Of a stretch of 64,000 nt of DNA, positions 2,678 through 10,955 are shown one piece after another. A model generated the notes under the pieces. The model saw only the letters and a program-made list of their open reading frames with translations. It searched no databases and had not been told where the DNA came from. Each line of letters starts with the position of its first letter. The stretch's first letter is position 1. Origin of the DNA: Myxococcales bacterium (GTDB lineage: Bacteria; Myxococcota_A; Bradymonadia; Bradymonadales; Bradymonadaceae); assembly GCA_007120035.1 (NCBI GenBank), contig SKON01000002.1:1-64000 (forward strand), written 5' to 3'. Position numbers and translations under genes: made by a program.

Positions 2678-3618
2678 GGGTCGTTCTCTCTCGAGGACGC
2701 CCGGGCGGCCAGGAGGCCCCCGGTGGTGACCACGCTCCGGAGGGTCATCAAGCCTCGGCGGGCGACGCGGCGATGGAGGGGGAGTCGGGGCCGGGGGAAC
2801 CGGCGTTGGAAATACTCCTCCATGAACCGGGCCACCTCGGGATCTCGTCTCGGGGCTTCGCCTTCGCTCCGGCCGAAGGTCCAGCACTTTCGAAAGAAGG
2901 CCCTCCAGGAGGTCAGGTAGTCGTGGTGGAGGACCATGTCCGGGGCGTAGAGGACCCTTGCGTCGTCGGTCTGGCTCAGGAGGCGACAGGTCAGCTCGAT
3001 GCCCTCGTGGCCAACGACCTCGTCGGAGAGGCCGTCGGCGTCGAGGTAAGCCTGGCGCCGCACCATGGAGGCACCTTCGGTGACCAGGGCGTCGTCGAGG
3101 GGCTCGGGGCCTCGGTCGTAGTGGGTGGCCAGGCTGGAGAAGTAGGGGTGCTCCCGGGCGACCACTCGGCCGCGGACGGCCTGAACGCCGGGGTCGTCGA
3201 AGTAGGCCAGGCCGGCGTCGAAGAAGTCGGGGGCCACCAGGCCGTCGTCGTCGATGAAGGCGATGACTTCTGCGGTGGCCCGGGCGACACCGAGGTTTCG
3301 AGCCGGGTTCAGGCCCAGGTTGTTGTTGTACCGGATCCAGCGATGCCAGAGCCCGGTCAGGTCCTCTCGAAGCGTCGGCGGTCCGTGATTGTCCATGACC
3401 AGGACTTCCACGGGGCGCGACGCCCGGGCGACCGCCTCGGCGACGGCTTGCAGGCAGTCCGCCAGGTGGGGGGCGCTGCCCTCCCAGGTGACCACCACGG
3501 CGGTGACGGCGGCGTCGGGGAGGCCCTGTCCATGCTCGGACTCCACCAGCGGTTCGTACCGGGACCGAAAGCCCGCAGCGCCTCCCGTGGGTGTGCCTTG
3601 TAGTCTGTGGTTATTCAT
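2674..3618 (-). CDS. Family 2 glycosyltransferase
   Basis: The 314-residue protein is a GT-A family 2 enzyme. It shows a VTAVVVTWEG first strand, VLVMDNHG, RYNNNLGLNPARNLG and the metal-binding IAFIDDDG, an arrangement like rhamnosyl- or galactofuranosyl-type GT2 proteins. The ATG at 3618 (MNNHRL) was chosen because CAGGAG lies about six bases upstream; an in-frame ATG at 3666 lacks this. The stop codon overlaps the start of the next GT2 gene by four bases, so both are made from one message. The acceptor is not predictable. Confidence 0.87.
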   Translation of the reverse strand: MNNHRLQGTPTGGAAGFRSRYEPLVESEHGQGLPDAAVTAVVVTWEGSAPHLADCLQAVAEAVARASRPVEVLVMDNHGPPTLREDLTGLWHRWIRYNNNLGLNPARNLGVARATAEVIAFIDDDGLVAPDFFDAGLAYFDDPGVQAVRGRVVAREHPYFSSLATHYDRGPEPLDDALVTEGASMVRRQAYLDADGLSDEVVGHEGIELTCRLLSQTDDARVLYAPDMVLHHDYLTSWRAFFRKCWTFGRSEGEAPRRDPEVARFMEEYFQRRFPRPRLPLHRRVARRGLMTLRSVVTTGGLLAARASSRENDP

Positions 3619-3726
3619 AGGGGCTCCTGGCGAGTCGGTCTTAGTCGATCCGTGGACGATTCTCAACGGCGACGGTCGTGGTATAGTCGCTCCCAGGTGG
3701 GCCTGAGTTTCCTTTGTTTGCCGCGG

Positions 3727-4758
3727 ATGGGTACTATGGAAGCCTTTCTGGACTCCACATTGCTAACGATCCTGGTGGTCATCGTCGTGGCCACGATCCT
3801 GGCGTTGGTCCGGGTGCAGAAGCGGGATCGATGCCTGACTCACTTCGACGGCTACCACGTGACCCTGGCCGAGAAGGATGGGAACGTGATCTGGGGGCGG
3901 CTGGACCTTCGGTCCACGGGGATGGAGCTCCACTATCCGGGCCCTCGGAGGTCGAAGAAGGGATTCTGGCAGCAGAGCTTTCTCTACTATCGAGACCAAT
4001 ACGAAGCCATGGACGGGGTGTATCGGTCCACGGCGGGCCTGACGGACGAACAGATCGAGGCCCGGCGGCGGTACCTGATGCAGACAGCCAACCCCGGGAT
4101 CTTTCGTTGGCTCTATCGGAGCACCCGGAATTGGGTGGGGATGGTTCGAGACGCGTTGGTCCAGGCCGTCTCGCTGCTCTTGGGGGCGGCGAAGAGCCGG
4201 GCCCAGCCGGCAGCGGTGCTCACCAGGGATCAGGAGCGGGTGTCCACTTTGTCGGAGGAGATCATCGGTCACGCGGGGAACTCCTTCGATCCCTTGTTGG
4301 AGCGCCACCTCTTTACCCGGGTGATCGTGAACGTGACCCGCCAGGGAGAACGGTACAGCTACTGCGGGTACCTGGCGGATTACACGTCGAAGTTTCTGGA
4401 GATCATCGACGCCCAGGTGAACTCCTCGGAGGATGAGTTCGACGTGATGACCCTGAAGCCCGGGGAGGTCCCCGTGGAGGGGCTGGAGATCGAGGTGGAG
4501 GACGATAAGCTTACGGTGGAGAATAAGACCGGGAAGGTCCTCTTGCTCCACAAGCTGATCCACGACGGAGAGGAGCGCAGCCTGGGCGCAGTGATCCCCG
4601 AGGGGTTTACGGCGAGCCTGAGGGTGGGGACTCAGTTCGACGCGGAGAAGCTGGAGGTTCTGGTGGGATCAGCGCTCCGGGTGGACCTGTTGGTCCCCAG
4701 ATCCCACGCGATTGTGCGGCACGGCGTGAGCGGGTTGGAGCTGGAAGAGTTGTTGTAG
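3727..4758 (+). CDS. Membrane-anchored protein of unknown function
   Basis: About 344 residues. One hydrophobic helix near the N-terminus (LTILVVIVVATILALV) anchors it, and the rest is predicted soluble. Two segments read like small beta-barrel strands: HVTLAEKDGNVIWGRLDL early on, and HLFTRVIVNVTRQGERYSY with a following LADYTSKFLEII later. No enzyme motif is visible and I do not recognise the family. The start may be ATG 3727 or ATG 3736 (MEAF); neither has a strong ribosome binding site. It is divergent from the glycosyltransferase pair and converges on the hypothetical gene at 4763 with a four-base gap. Confidence 0.7.
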   Translation: MGTMEAFLDSTLLTILVVIVVATILALVRVQKRDRCLTHFDGYHVTLAEKDGNVIWGRLDLRSTGMELHYPGPRRSKKGFWQQSFLYYRDQYEAMDGVYRSTAGLTDEQIEARRRYLMQTANPGIFRWLYRSTRNWVGMVRDALVQAVSLLLGAAKSRAQPAAVLTRDQERVSTLSEEIIGHAGNSFDPLLERHLFTRVIVNVTRQGERYSYCGYLADYTSKFLEIIDAQVNSSEDEFDVMTLKPGEVPVEGLEIEVEDDKLTVENKTGKVLLLHKLIHDGEERSLGAVIPEGFTASLRVGTQFDAEKLEVLVGSALRVDLLVPRSHAIVRHGVSGLELEELL

Positions 4759-4762
4759 TGCC

Positions 4763-5374
4763 TTAGAGCACGGCTTCGTCGGAGGCGACGGCGTAGGGCC
4801 ATCGGATCTTCTGATACTCTTCGTGGTGGCGGCCCAGGTCGCGGCGCAGGGCTCGTCGGAAGCTCGCCACGGTGTTCACCAGGGTAGTCATGGCGTCGGA
4901 GCGCATCTGGGCCTGTCGCTTGTACTCTTTGAGGGCCGCCAGGCTTTCGCGGCGGGCGCTCTGCGCGGACGCGCGCAGGCGCTTGAGGGCTTCGGCCTGG
5001 GATTCGGCGAAGTCGATGCTCTCTTTTTCTTCCTGGAGGTAGCCGATCATCTCTTCGATGAAGGGCAAGAGCCGGGTGTGGTCCCAGTACATCACCTTCT
5101 GGTCCACGAAGCCCGTGGCGTTGACCTTGCGGAGCATCTCCTGGGTCTCGCCGAAGCCGCGGGCGACGTGTTTCCAGGCCAGCCGCTCGGCGCGGTCTCT
5201 GTGTTTCCAGGTGATGAAGGCGCTGTCCGAGTTGGCGACGACCTTCTTCATGTCGCGGTCGGCTTTCTCGAGGAGGCCGGCGAAGTTCTCGCACGTGGGC
5301 TGATCTTCATGGCGCGCACAGTAGGCCAGGGAATCGAGGATACATTGATCTAGCTCAAACCGGTTTGCATACAT
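4763..5374 (-). CDS. Hypothetical helical protein
   Basis: A 203-residue, charged, almost wholly alpha-helical protein with a long coiled-coil-like stretch in its second half (roughly residues 110-180, rich in A, E, R and K). There is no signal peptide, membrane helix or catalytic motif, and I do not recognise the family. The start is ATG 5374 (MYANRF), which has GAGGTGG five bases upstream; a GTG two codons earlier is less well placed. It is divergent from the methyltransferase gene at 5486. It was examined as a possible restriction partner, but no nuclease motif is visible. Confidence 0.65.
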   Translation of the reverse strand: MYANRFELDQCILDSLAYCARHEDQPTCENFAGLLEKADRDMKKVVANSDSAFITWKHRDRAERLAWKHVARGFGETQEMLRKVNATGFVDQKVMYWDHTRLLPFIEEMIGYLQEEKESIDFAESQAEALKRLRASAQSARRESLAALKEYKRQAQMRSDAMTTLVNTVASFRRALRRDLGRHHEEYQKIRWPYAVASDEAVL

Positions 5375-5485
5375 CGCCACCTCGGGGCCGGGGGACAGTC
5401 CGGGCGATTTTATGCCGTATTGGGGTGGGGGCTGTCAATCGGCGGGTCGCCGTGTAAGCTGGCGGGCGGCAAAGCGAGGTGTGTT

Positions 5486-6400
5486 GTGCGCGGTATTCGA
5501 GCGTTGGAGCTGTTCAGCGGGATCGGGGGGTTCTCCGAGAGCCTGCGGGCGTTGGGGCCCGCGGCGAGTGGGGTGGAGGTGGTGGCGGCCGTGGAGATGG
5601 CTCCCCATTTGATGGAGGCCTACGGGGAGAACTTCCCGGGGGCCAAGCGGTTGCGAAAGAACCTCTTGAGCTTGCCGACCAAGGCACTGGCGAAGGTGGA
5701 GGCCGATCTGTGGTGGATGTCGCCGCCCTGTCAGCCGTTTACGACCCGGGGGTTGCAGCGGGGGTTGGACGATCCGCGGGCCCAGATCCTGCCCCGGCTG
5801 ATGGCGTGGATCGAGGAGCTCGCGCCAGCGATGGTGGGGATGGAGAACGTACCGGGGTTCTCGGGGTCCCGGGCTCATGAGCAGCTCATGGCGACGTTGG
5901 AGCAGGGCGAGTACGAGGTGGAAGAGCGCCTGCTCTGTCCCACGGAGCTGGGGATTCCGGCGCGTCGGGAGCGCTACTATCTGGTGGCTCGCCGGGGTGG
6001 GCTGCCGGAGCGAGGGGAGCGGCGGGAGCGGCCGGCGCGAGAGCTTCTTGAGTTCCTGGACCAGGAGCCCGATGACGACCTCCGGGTGCCGGCAGAGGTG
6101 CTGGCGAAGTACGAAAAGGGGATGCGGATTCTGGACCTGGAGGCCGACCCGGGCGCTATAGCCAACACGTTTACGTCGGCCTACGGCAAGAGCTGGCGAG
6201 CCTCGGGGTCGTACCTGAGGATCCCCGATGGGGGAGCCCGGTTCTTGTCGCCCCGGGAGATCCTGCGGGTGATGGGGTTCTCCGAGGAGTTTCGGTTCCC
6301 CGAGGGGTTCACGCGCCGAAGAGCCTACAAAGCTGTGGGCAACAGCCTGTCGGTCTTCGCGATGCAGGAGGTGTTGTCCAGGCTCCTCGGCGCTCCCTGA
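5486..6400 (+). CDS. C5-cytosine methyltransferase, Dnmt2-like (probable tRNA methyltransferase)
   Basis: About 304 residues with all main C5-methyltransferase motifs: I (ALELFSGIGGF, SAM binding), IV (SPPCQPFT, catalytic Cys near residue 82), VI (MENVPGF), VIII (GIPARRERYYLVAR) and X (GNSLSVFAMQEVL). The target-recognition region is very short and resembles Dnmt2/TRDMT1, the tRNA-Asp/Glu C38 methyltransferase. It reads NTFTSAYGK, then a GSYL segment, then LSPREILRVMGF and FRFPEGFTRRRAYKAVGNSL, in the order of the Dnmt2 C-terminus. The Dnmt2 CFT tripeptide is TFT here. The start is GTG 5486, with GCGAGG six bases upstream. There is no restriction enzyme beside it. It ends immediately before the convergent moeB-like gene. 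A solitary DNA methyltransferase remains possible. Confidence 0.85.
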   Translation: MRGIRALELFSGIGGFSESLRALGPAASGVEVVAAVEMAPHLMEAYGENFPGAKRLRKNLLSLPTKALAKVEADLWWMSPPCQPFTTRGLQRGLDDPRAQILPRLMAWIEELAPAMVGMENVPGFSGSRAHEQLMATLEQGEYEVEERLLCPTELGIPARRERYYLVARRGGLPERGERRERPARELLEFLDQEPDDDLRVPAEVLAKYEKGMRILDLEADPGAIANTFTSAYGKSWRASGSYLRIPDGGARFLSPREILRVMGFSEEFRFPEGFTRRRAYKAVGNSLSVFAMQEVLSRLLGAP

Positions 6401-7690: not shown

Positions 7691-10507
7691 TTAATCAACG
7701 GGGTCGTTGCTGTCGTAGAGATCATCGGCCTCGTCGGCCTCTTCCAGGGCCTCTCGGAGGAGCTGAATCTCCCGGTCTGCGTCCTCAATGGCGAGGCGGC
7801 TGCGGATCTGGTTGATGGTCTGTCGCAGGGGAGTGCGGAGCTCCCGAGGGAGCTCGGAGGCCCGGTTCTGGAGGGTGTCGGCGATCTCCTCGTTGGAGAC
7901 GAACCCCAGACCGCGGAGGGCTCGGCTTCGGGTCGACACCTCCCGATTGGAGTCGAACGCGACGGAGAGGAGAAAGTCCGTGGCCCGCGTGGATCCCCGC
8001 AGGCCCAGGCCGACGAGGGCCCGGTGGCTGAGGTCCTGGTTCGCCTCCGGGGGGCGGTGTCGAAGGCCCTCATAAGACTCGGCGGCCACGGCGATCAGGG
8101 TCTGATCGGCCATGGGGTCGTCGACGAAGGCCAGCATGTCGACGAGCTGGCGAAGCAGGGCGTGGGGGACGGCGTCGTCATCGAGGTAGGCGGTGATCCG
8201 AGGCAAGGGGAGGGCCCGTTTCTCTCGGCGAAGGGCCCGCATGGCTGTGGCGGCTTCCCGGGTCGTCGGGTCTCGCTCCACGAGATCAGCGAGGGCCACG
8301 GCGGCCTCGTCGTGGGGGGAGGCGGCCAGGAGGAGGGCAGCGTGATGGATCGCCCGGGGCCACCGCTCGGCCTCCAAGAAGGCGATCACGACGGGGGTGG
8401 CGTCGGGGGCGTCGTCGCGGCGAGCAAGGGACCGGATGGCGGCGATTCGGACGTCGGGCGAGGCGTCCTGGAGGGCTTCTTCCAGAGCCTGCCGAGGGGC
8501 CGACCCGAGGTGGAGTCGCAAGGCGCCGGCGGCGAAGCTCCGGATCAGCGGATCCGGGTCGTCGCTCAAGAGCTCGATCAACACCGCCGTGCCGCCATCG
8601 GTCAGGAGGTAGCCCAGGGCCTCGATGGCTCGCCGACGGAAGGCCCGGGGCGTGCCGGTCTTCGCCCGCTCCAGGAGCATCTCGGTGCCATCGGCGTCGG
8701 TGGCCTCGTGATAGAAGTGCCGCTGGCCGATGAAGACCAGGGTGGTCAGGCCGTCCAAAGACGTCGGAGACTCCTCCGGGGCGTCGGCGACGGCGGACAA
8801 GACCGGGACGACCATGGGGGTTCCGCCGGCGGCGATGGCGCGGATCCGCTCTCGCCTTAAGAATTCGGGGCCCTCCCCGAGCTCTCGGAGCAGGGGCTGG
8901 AGGTCCAGGGGCCGTCCAACGCGGCCCAGGAGGCGCACGACGTCGACGTACTTTCGCTCCTCCATGTCGAGCTCTCCCAGGACCTCCAGGAGAGCCGGGG
9001 CGGCGGTCTCGCCATGCCCGGCGATAGCCCGCTTGGTGCGCCGGTAGTCCACCTCGGCGGGGTCGATGCGCAGGAAGTGCTCCGTGAGGATCGGGAGGGA
9101 GAGCTCCGGGTCGAGGCGACCCAACAAGGGGAGAGTGCGAGCGTTGCGGTCGGCGTCACCTTCTCGGAGGAGCTCGTCGATGGCTGTGGACAGGTGCTCG
9201 GGGATCTCGGCGCCCAGCGCGGAGACGCGGTCCCGCTCGTCGGGGCGGTCTTTCGAGAGGATCAGGTCGATCAAATTGCGGGCCGTCTGCTCCGCCTCGG
9301 GGTGGTCAGCGGCGGAGTAGGGGGTGATCTCCGAGATGGTCACGCTCCGGCCCAGCCGTTGGTTCTCGGTGTTTCGGGATCGGATCAGGGCTCCGGGACG
9401 AGCGTCGAGGATCATCACCGAGAGGCATCGGGTCGTCACGGGCTCCGGGAGCTCTATCAGATACCCACCGGTGCGTTGGATCTCCTCGAAGGACACCTCC
9501 GGCAGGTCCACGAGGAACCGCTCACCGTCGCTGAGGCCGATGAGCACTTGCGTGGGGAGGGCGTAGTTCCCGTAGTGGTCCACCGAGGCGCCGTGGCCCG
9601 GGGCGATCCGTAGCCCGGTCACGGGCACGATGTCGTTGACGCTGGCCGTGACGAACTCCCCGCTGCCCCCGTCGCTGCTCCCCTCGATCCAGGCTCGGCG
9701 CAGGTTGAAGGCCCCCAATTCCAGGGGCCGCGGCGGCGCCGCTCCCGCGGGCGCGCCCCGAACGTCGCTGCTGGCCGCCACCCAGGAGAAGAAGTTGCGG
9801 GTGTGGGGCAGGGGGATCTCCTCCTCCGGCAAGGTGGCCTCCAACTCCAGGGCTTCCCCGGTGAGGACCTGCACCTCAGTGGCGGGCTCGAACCGTCCCG
9901 TGCCGGGATCGTAGAGGTCGTACTCCGGCACCTCATCGGACTGGAGGCCGCAGAAACGGATCGTGTCTACCACGTCTCGTCGGGTCAGTCGGGACTCACC
10001 CTCGTGGTCTTCGAAGCGGAAGAGGGGGCCTCCGTCGAGCTCGGTCCGCTCCCCGCGGGCCACGACCTGGCATCGCCACCCGGAAGCCCCGGCGTGGGGG
10101 GTCAAACCGAAGACGATCTGGTAGTGAGGTGGGTCGAGAGGCCCGTCGGCGGAGTTGACCCGGGCGTCCAAGAGAAGCAGGTGCTGGGCCGACGCCGTGG
10201 GTTGGTCTTGAAGCGTGAAGTCGTAGTAGTCGGCCCCGGCCTCCCGCGGCAGGGTCGTTCGGCAGAGCACGGCGCCGGCTTCGGCGGTGGCGACCGTGAC
10301 GTTCCAGTTTCTACGCGAAGCCTCGGCCTCTCGGGAGACCTCCACAGTCAGGGCGTTTCGGCGGGGGACTGGCCGGACATCTTCGGAGAACCGAAGGACC
10401 GCGCCGTCCTCAGTGGGCTCCGATGCCTCTGCCTGTGCGGGCGCCACGGTGGCCAGTAGAGCAGCCCCGACGAGGGTCGCCTTAAAAGTGTTACGTAAAG
10501 GTTCCAT
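7691..10507 (-). CDS. Secreted HEAT-repeat protein
   Basis: The 938-residue protein begins with a signal peptide (hydrophobic ATLVGAALLATVAPAQA, predicted cleavage after AQA). The first half, roughly residues 30-430, is beta-rich, perhaps two beta-sandwich domains. The second half is a long run of HEAT/PBS-lyase-like helical repeats, for example FRRRAIEALGYLLTDGG and IRSFAAGALRLHLG. Such proteins usually scaffold protein-protein contacts, here outside the cytoplasm. The start is ATG 10507 (MEPLRN); the ribosome binding site is weak. It lies four bases after the Nudix gene, so they probably share a transcript. Function not recognised. Confidence 0.8.
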   Translation of the reverse strand: MEPLRNTFKATLVGAALLATVAPAQAEASEPTEDGAVLRFSEDVRPVPRRNALTVEVSREAEASRRNWNVTVATAEAGAVLCRTTLPREAGADYYDFTLQDQPTASAQHLLLLDARVNSADGPLDPPHYQIVFGLTPHAGASGWRCQVVARGERTELDGGPLFRFEDHEGESRLTRRDVVDTIRFCGLQSDEVPEYDLYDPGTGRFEPATEVQVLTGEALELEATLPEEEIPLPHTRNFFSWVAASSDVRGAPAGAAPPRPLELGAFNLRRAWIEGSSDGGSGEFVTASVNDIVPVTGLRIAPGHGASVDHYGNYALPTQVLIGLSDGERFLVDLPEVSFEEIQRTGGYLIELPEPVTTRCLSVMILDARPGALIRSRNTENQRLGRSVTISEITPYSAADHPEAEQTARNLIDLILSKDRPDERDRVSALGAEIPEHLSTAIDELLREGDADRNARTLPLLGRLDPELSLPILTEHFLRIDPAEVDYRRTKRAIAGHGETAAPALLEVLGELDMEERKYVDVVRLLGRVGRPLDLQPLLRELGEGPEFLRRERIRAIAAGGTPMVVPVLSAVADAPEESPTSLDGLTTLVFIGQRHFYHEATDADGTEMLLERAKTGTPRAFRRRAIEALGYLLTDGGTAVLIELLSDDPDPLIRSFAAGALRLHLGSAPRQALEEALQDASPDVRIAAIRSLARRDDAPDATPVVIAFLEAERWPRAIHHAALLLAASPHDEAAVALADLVERDPTTREAATAMRALRREKRALPLPRITAYLDDDAVPHALLRQLVDMLAFVDDPMADQTLIAVAAESYEGLRHRPPEANQDLSHRALVGLGLRGSTRATDFLLSVAFDSNREVSTRSRALRGLGFVSNEEIADTLQNRASELPRELRTPLRQTINQIRSRLAIEDADREIQLLREALEEADEADDLYDSNDPVD

Positions 10508-10511
10508 GAGG

Positions 10512-10955
10512 TTATGCTTTATGTTTCTCGAGGTAGTCCATCGGCGAGGGCCGGGTCTGGGTTCGGCGAAACTCAAGGAAATCTTCCCAGATCTCGCGGT
10601 GGTCAAACACGATCTCTTCTGGAGGATGCTCGAGATCGAAGAGCTCCGCTCGGGTGGCGTCGTCGGCGGCCTGGGGCGTCCCGGAGGCCGTGGCGGTGAA
10701 CACCACGGAGAGGTTGTGCTGACGAGGGTCACGACCGGGGCGGGAGTACACGTAGAGGAGCTCCTTCAGCTCGATCTCCATCCCCGTCTCTTCTCGGGCC
10801 TCGCGGATGGCGGCGGTCTCCACGGACTCTCCGTAGTCGACGAATCCGCCGGGCAGCGCCCATCCCCGGGGCTCGTTGGCCCGGTAGATCCAGAGGAGTT
10901 TTCCGTCGACCTCGACGAGGACGTCCACGGTGGGGAAGGGGTTTCGATAGGTCAT
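10512..10955 (-). CDS. Nudix hydrolase
   Basis: A compact 147-residue protein with a complete Nudix box, GX5EX7REUXEEXGU, seen as GGFVDYGESVETAAIREA followed by REETGMEI. The ALPGG just before it also fits. These enzymes hydrolyse nucleoside diphosphates linked to another moiety; the substrate cannot be predicted (ADP-ribose, sugar nucleotides and oxidised nucleotides are all possible). The start is ATG with AAAGGG upstream. It is the first gene of a likely two-gene unit with the HEAT protein and is divergent from maf. Confidence 0.9.
   Translation of the reverse strand: MTYRNPFPTVDVLVEVDGKLLWIYRANEPRGWALPGGFVDYGESVETAAIREAREETGMEIELKELLYVYSRPGRDPRQHNLSVVFTATASGTPQAADDATRAELFDLEHPPEEIVFDHREIWEDFLEFRRTQTRPSPMDYLEKHKA

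Follow-up and report, generated by a model that had tools for sequence, protein, structure and literature searches.

Dnmt2 has the fold of a DNA methyltransferase but acts on tRNA, a textbook instance of such a switch, and the base it modifies lies beside the anticodon. M.HhaI-type enzymes belong to restriction systems and methylate DNA at specific sequences. C38 is the base methylated by the Dnmt2s that PMC5372726 reviews, and substrate choice varies between the known members; the Schizosaccharomyces pombe enzyme is stimulated by Q, and Table 1 of the same source reports that the Geobacter sulfurreducens enzyme, whose own sequence lies outside the set compared here, methylates tRNA-Glu. A CFT triplet beside motif IX was published as diagnostic of Dnmt2, in a 2011 survey that recognized one bacterial group, represented by Geobacter (PMC3227630). 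Exchange of the Cys of this triplet in human DNMT2, C292, is reported to lower activity without abolishing it, and Dictyostelium DnmA, with CVT as its signature, is reported to be active (PMC12405889) and methylates tRNA (PMC5372726).

We analyzed a 64,000-nt stretch of the forward strand of contig SKON01000002.1 (the window, to which all coordinates refer), from a genome that is 93% complete. An intact reading frame on the plus strand at 5486–6400, running from a GTG start codon (5486–5488) to a TGA stop (6398–6400), encodes a 304-aa C5-cytosine methyltransferase of the Dnmt2 clade, as judged from PF00145, a tree and structure matches. A GAGG at 5476–5479 (+), 6 nt upstream of the GTG, is likely to be the ribosome-binding site. 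Alignment located motif I, LELFSGIGG, for SAM binding (5504–5530), motif IV, PPCQP (5723–5737), with the codon of the catalytic Cys82 (human C79) at 5729–5731, motif VI, ENV, with Glu120 (human E119; 5843–5851), motif VIII, RER, with Arg161 and Arg163 (human R160 and R162; 5966–5974), and motif X, GNS (6338–6346), all on the plus strand. Equivalents of Cys82, Glu120, Arg161 and Arg163 were invariant in 90 of 90 alignment rows, and every predicted catalytic residue of the window protein is intact. Pfam and NCBIfam resolve the protein to the level of the C5-cytosine methylase superfamily only, and PADLOC, like them, labels it a DNA methylase; such models do not separate Dnmt2.

The protein falls with Dnmt2 by sequence, tree and fold. 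In a phmmer search of the PDB, human DNMT2 ranked highest (124 bits, E 4e-35), followed by the insect, Entamoeba and yeast Dnmt2s and then by M.HhaI, at no more than 80 bits; a 12-member profile of the window protein's family scored DNMT2 at 232 bits versus 133–134 bits for M.HhaI. A phylogeny separated a Dnmt2 clade, comprising the window protein, 38 other bacterial proteins and 4 eukaryotic ones, from 20 DNA C5-methyltransferases with support of 100/100, the latter being M.HhaI and those sequences from plasmids, phages and same-phylum genomes that were chosen as resembling the window protein. A 103-row tree likewise set the clade apart (SH-aLRT 98). PDB chains confirmed the M.HhaI sequence used at full length and that of human DNMT2 at all but about residues 192–235, which these chains lack; the three remaining eukaryotic sequences came from printed PDB alignments. 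Within the clade, a 21-row sub-clade (96/95) joined the window protein with Geobacteraceae Dnmt2s (Geobacter argillaceus L065 and L067), which, unlike it, carry CFT, and the protein was bracketed by eukaryotic and Geobacteraceae members. An AlphaFold2 model (pLDDT 96.5) gave Dnmt2 crystal structures at ranks 1–5 of a structure comparison, with Z of 32.8–37.5 against 30.7 for M.HhaI, and Dnmt2 structures at ranks 1–9 in Foldseek. A sequence-only reading had proposed a Dnmt2-like enzyme and named phylogeny as its check; both trees uphold that identity, and placement inside the DNA methyltransferases was not what they returned. The likeness to Dnmt2 that it saw in the C-terminal half is real, although not restricted to that half, as the whole protein resembles Dnmt2.

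Human DNMT2, S. pombe Pmt1, Entamoeba histolytica EhMeth and Spodoptera frugiperda Dnmt2 share clade, fold and catalytic residues with the window protein, and their motif IV SPPCQPFT and target-recognition segment are alike in it. Compared with human DNMT2 it is bacterial, shorter (304 versus 391 aa) and has Thr in place of Cys at 292. This change lies in the target-recognition segment TFTSAYGKSWRASGS (6167–6211, +), which alignment pairs with human CFTKGYGSYIEGTGS. The codons at 6167–6175 (+) are ACG TTT ACG, so that residues 228–230 read TFT where Dnmt2 has CFT, with Thr228 equivalent to human C292 and to M.HhaI T250. The rest of the signature segment is kept, with F229, T230, Y233, G241 and S242 corresponding to human F293, T294, Y297, G305 and S306. 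Clade placement, catalytic set and closest fold all agree on Dnmt2, and the literal CFT is the published mark that the protein lacks. DnmA also has a broken triplet; its change is at the F, whereas that of the window protein is at the C.

The substitution had been noticed in the sequence-only reading as a peculiarity that could alter activity or specificity. The alignment confirmed the TFT, but showed it to be no isolated lesion. Among 86 distinct bacterial clade members, gathered from a search of the phylum's genomes and an alignment scan of genome contigs, the triplet was CFT in 71, CFA in 6, TFT in 5, VFT in 3 and TVT in 1. TFT was common to the window protein and three genomes of the genus Lujinxingia (one of them L. 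vulgaris; L031 = L003), and these formed, with a TVT-bearing relative (G006), a clade with support of 99/84, in which one Lujinxingia representative stood in the tree. TFT is ancestral to this clade. Across the TFT/TVT clade the reading frame and all catalytic residues were kept at roughly 50–55% identity. Thr had a separate origin in an Acidobacteriota genome and was also present in a genome of another family (G123); Val or Thr arose in the place of Cys more than once in the Dnmt2 clade. A sequencing error at 6167–6169 was ruled out because the relatives carry the same Thr. Strict use of CFT would drop 15 of the 86 bacterial members as well as the active DnmA, and we therefore regard the triplet as a marker and not a requirement. 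Given its spread over a whole clade, the human C292 result and the CVT of DnmA, the change from Cys to Thr is an inherited and probably tolerated variant.

The sequence-only reading had also taken bacterial Dnmt2s to be rare, and this did not survive a wider search: they are far commoner than assumed. The alignment scan found at least 156 bacterial Dnmt2-type loci, of which 80 were kept, in Planctomycetota, Thermodesulfobacteriota/Desulfuromonadales, Myxococcota, Acidobacteriota, Campylobacterota, Melainabacteria and others, the names being those of record titles and NCBI ranks and uncertain for several records that are metagenome bins. The eukaryotic Dnmt2s were a sister branch to these proteins. 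A Dnmt2-type gene was present in 31 of 237 genomes of the window bacterium's phylum and in 10 of 21 of its GTDB family; since it is absent from the other 11, the gene is dispensable or often lost. In two loci titled as Klebsiella pneumoniae MAGs (L081 and L095) the Dnmt2 genes fall with Myxococcota; the L095 protein is identical to that of a genome of the window bacterium's phylum (G092), and these bins look mislabelled. In two further loci, L104 and L233 (G161), the Dnmt2 domain lies in open frames of 655 and 708 aa from stop to stop, which could be fusions or merely long open frames.

We also examined the setting of the gene. The flanking genes scanned encode glycosyltransferases, two hypothetical proteins, MoeB/rhodanese, a HEAT-repeat protein, NUDIX, Maf, YggS and ProC, all of them housekeeping, glycosyltransferase or hypothetical; the scan of this set picked up no restriction gene. 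A PF00145 search of the 93%-complete genome found no other C5-methyltransferase, in agreement with the earlier description of the gene as solitary. An adjacent endonuclease and grouping with DNA C5-methyltransferases would be expected of a type II restriction-modification system, and neither was seen. PADLOC matches beside the gene were set aside as the generic E1-fold similarity of a MoeB. Across long loci, gene neighbours were not conserved beyond short lineage-specific runs. The two hypothetical proteins, at 3607–4758 (+) and 4763–5380 (−), matched no Pfam family over its cut-off, and the 1013-aa HEAT-repeat protein (7691–10732, −) matched an F5/8-type-C-like domain below threshold.

Suitable tRNAs are present in the genome. 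Human DNMT2 follows the rule C32-U33-(G/I)34-N35-(C/U)36-A37-C38 together with U11:A24 (PMC12780215). Among the tRNAs examined, tRNA-Asp(GUC) alone fitted this rule in full; tRNA-Glu(UUC) shares C38 and U11:A24 but departs from it in U34, and tRNA-Val(GAC), tRNA-Val(CAC) and tRNA-Ala(CGC) have C38 without U11:A24. The anticodon stems of tRNA-Asp and tRNA-Glu are identical (CCGGC/GCCGG), and C38 was kept in the copies of both that were read in 10 of 10 gene carriers of the family. A relative that lacks the gene (G009) has an identical tRNA-Asp. Because C38 and U11:A24 are widespread in tRNA-Asp and tRNA-Glu on account of synthetase identity and GluQ-RS, their presence is weak evidence. Within the family a tRNA-Glu lacking C38 occurred in none of the 10 carriers versus 4 of 11 non-carriers. 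Tracking of gene presence by tRNA-Glu C38 was nevertheless set aside, as the four reduce to two sister pairs and a tRNA-Glu with U38 occurs in carriers of other families (G081, G088, G092, G100, G104 and G123). If those carriers have no second isoacceptor with C38, tRNA-Glu cannot be a universal bacterial substrate. Matches resembling tRNA-Glu with U38 or A38 occurred in about half of the 237 phylum genomes, some of them Dnmt2 carriers (loop UUUUCAU), and tRNA-Asp kept C38 wherever it was read in phylum genomes. The genome encodes a Q-inserting TGT, and a GluQ-RS-like gene scores above its curated cut-off, so that tRNA-Asp may bear Q or GluQ at position 34, near C38. There were two strong TGT matches, G000:C278:74077-75156 (499 bits), about 10 kb beyond the window, and G000:C342:700-1779 (490 bits), a pair that may reflect a paralogue or a contaminating contig.

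Together these data point to an active Dnmt2-type tRNA m5C38 methylase, stand-alone and tolerant of a change from Cys to Thr in its signature, as the likely product of the gene. Activity, an RNA over a DNA substrate, position 38 and the choice of tRNA are inferred from family membership and tRNA anatomy. Cys82 would attack C6 of the flipped-out cytosine and SAM would donate the methyl group, converting C38 of the anticodon loop to m5C, with tRNA-Asp(GUC) and/or tRNA-Glu(UUC) as likely substrates. The change would have been fixed in the ancestor of the window bacterium, Lujinxingia and one more relative; in restoring the M.HhaI residue, T250, it probably tunes activity and does not abolish it. 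The missing literal CFT, the patchy occurrence of the gene and the lowered activity after exchange of human C292 count against this explanation. The last two would also suit a Dnmt2-clade enzyme that the signature change has crippled or left non-catalytic, and that is retained only to bind tRNA or is in the course of loss. We consider this very unlikely, as the TFT/TVT clade has kept frame and catalytic residues over its divergence, DnmA methylates tRNA with CVT, and Thr or Val has originated repeatedly.

M.HhaI-type DNA C5-methyltransferases share the fold, the chemistry and the Thr (T250) with the window protein, and Thr occupies this column, where the alignment is loose, in most of the HhaI-like DNA methyltransferases that could be aligned. 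With the names given by Pfam, NCBIfam and PADLOC, this could mean that the protein is an orphan DNA C5-methyltransferase whose Thr marks a return to DNA. That is unlikely in view of the full support for the split from DNA methyltransferases, a target-recognition segment that is otherwise that of Dnmt2, the lack of a restriction partner among the flanking genes, and bracketing by clades with reported tRNA substrates. An active RNA methyltransferase with another cytosine or another RNA as its main target is hardly to be expected: the two tRNA-Val species and tRNA-Ala(CGC) carry C38 as well, and known Dnmt2s differ in their choice of substrate, but those three lack U11:A24 and the reviewed enzymes act at C38. 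We give a small chance to a related idea, that the Dnmt2 of the family of Lujinxingia regained the Thr of DNA methyltransferases and with it changed substrate, to another set of tRNAs or to DNA. If so, CFT, VFT, TFT and TVT would form a natural series with which to test the choice between RNA and DNA in this fold.

The repeated replacement of Cys by Thr or Val makes CFT an unreliable criterion of membership and offers natural variants at the target-recognition site. The wide bacterial spread, with the eukaryotic enzymes as a sister branch, suggests that the switch to tRNA possibly took place before eukaryotes, and it provides many bacterial models.
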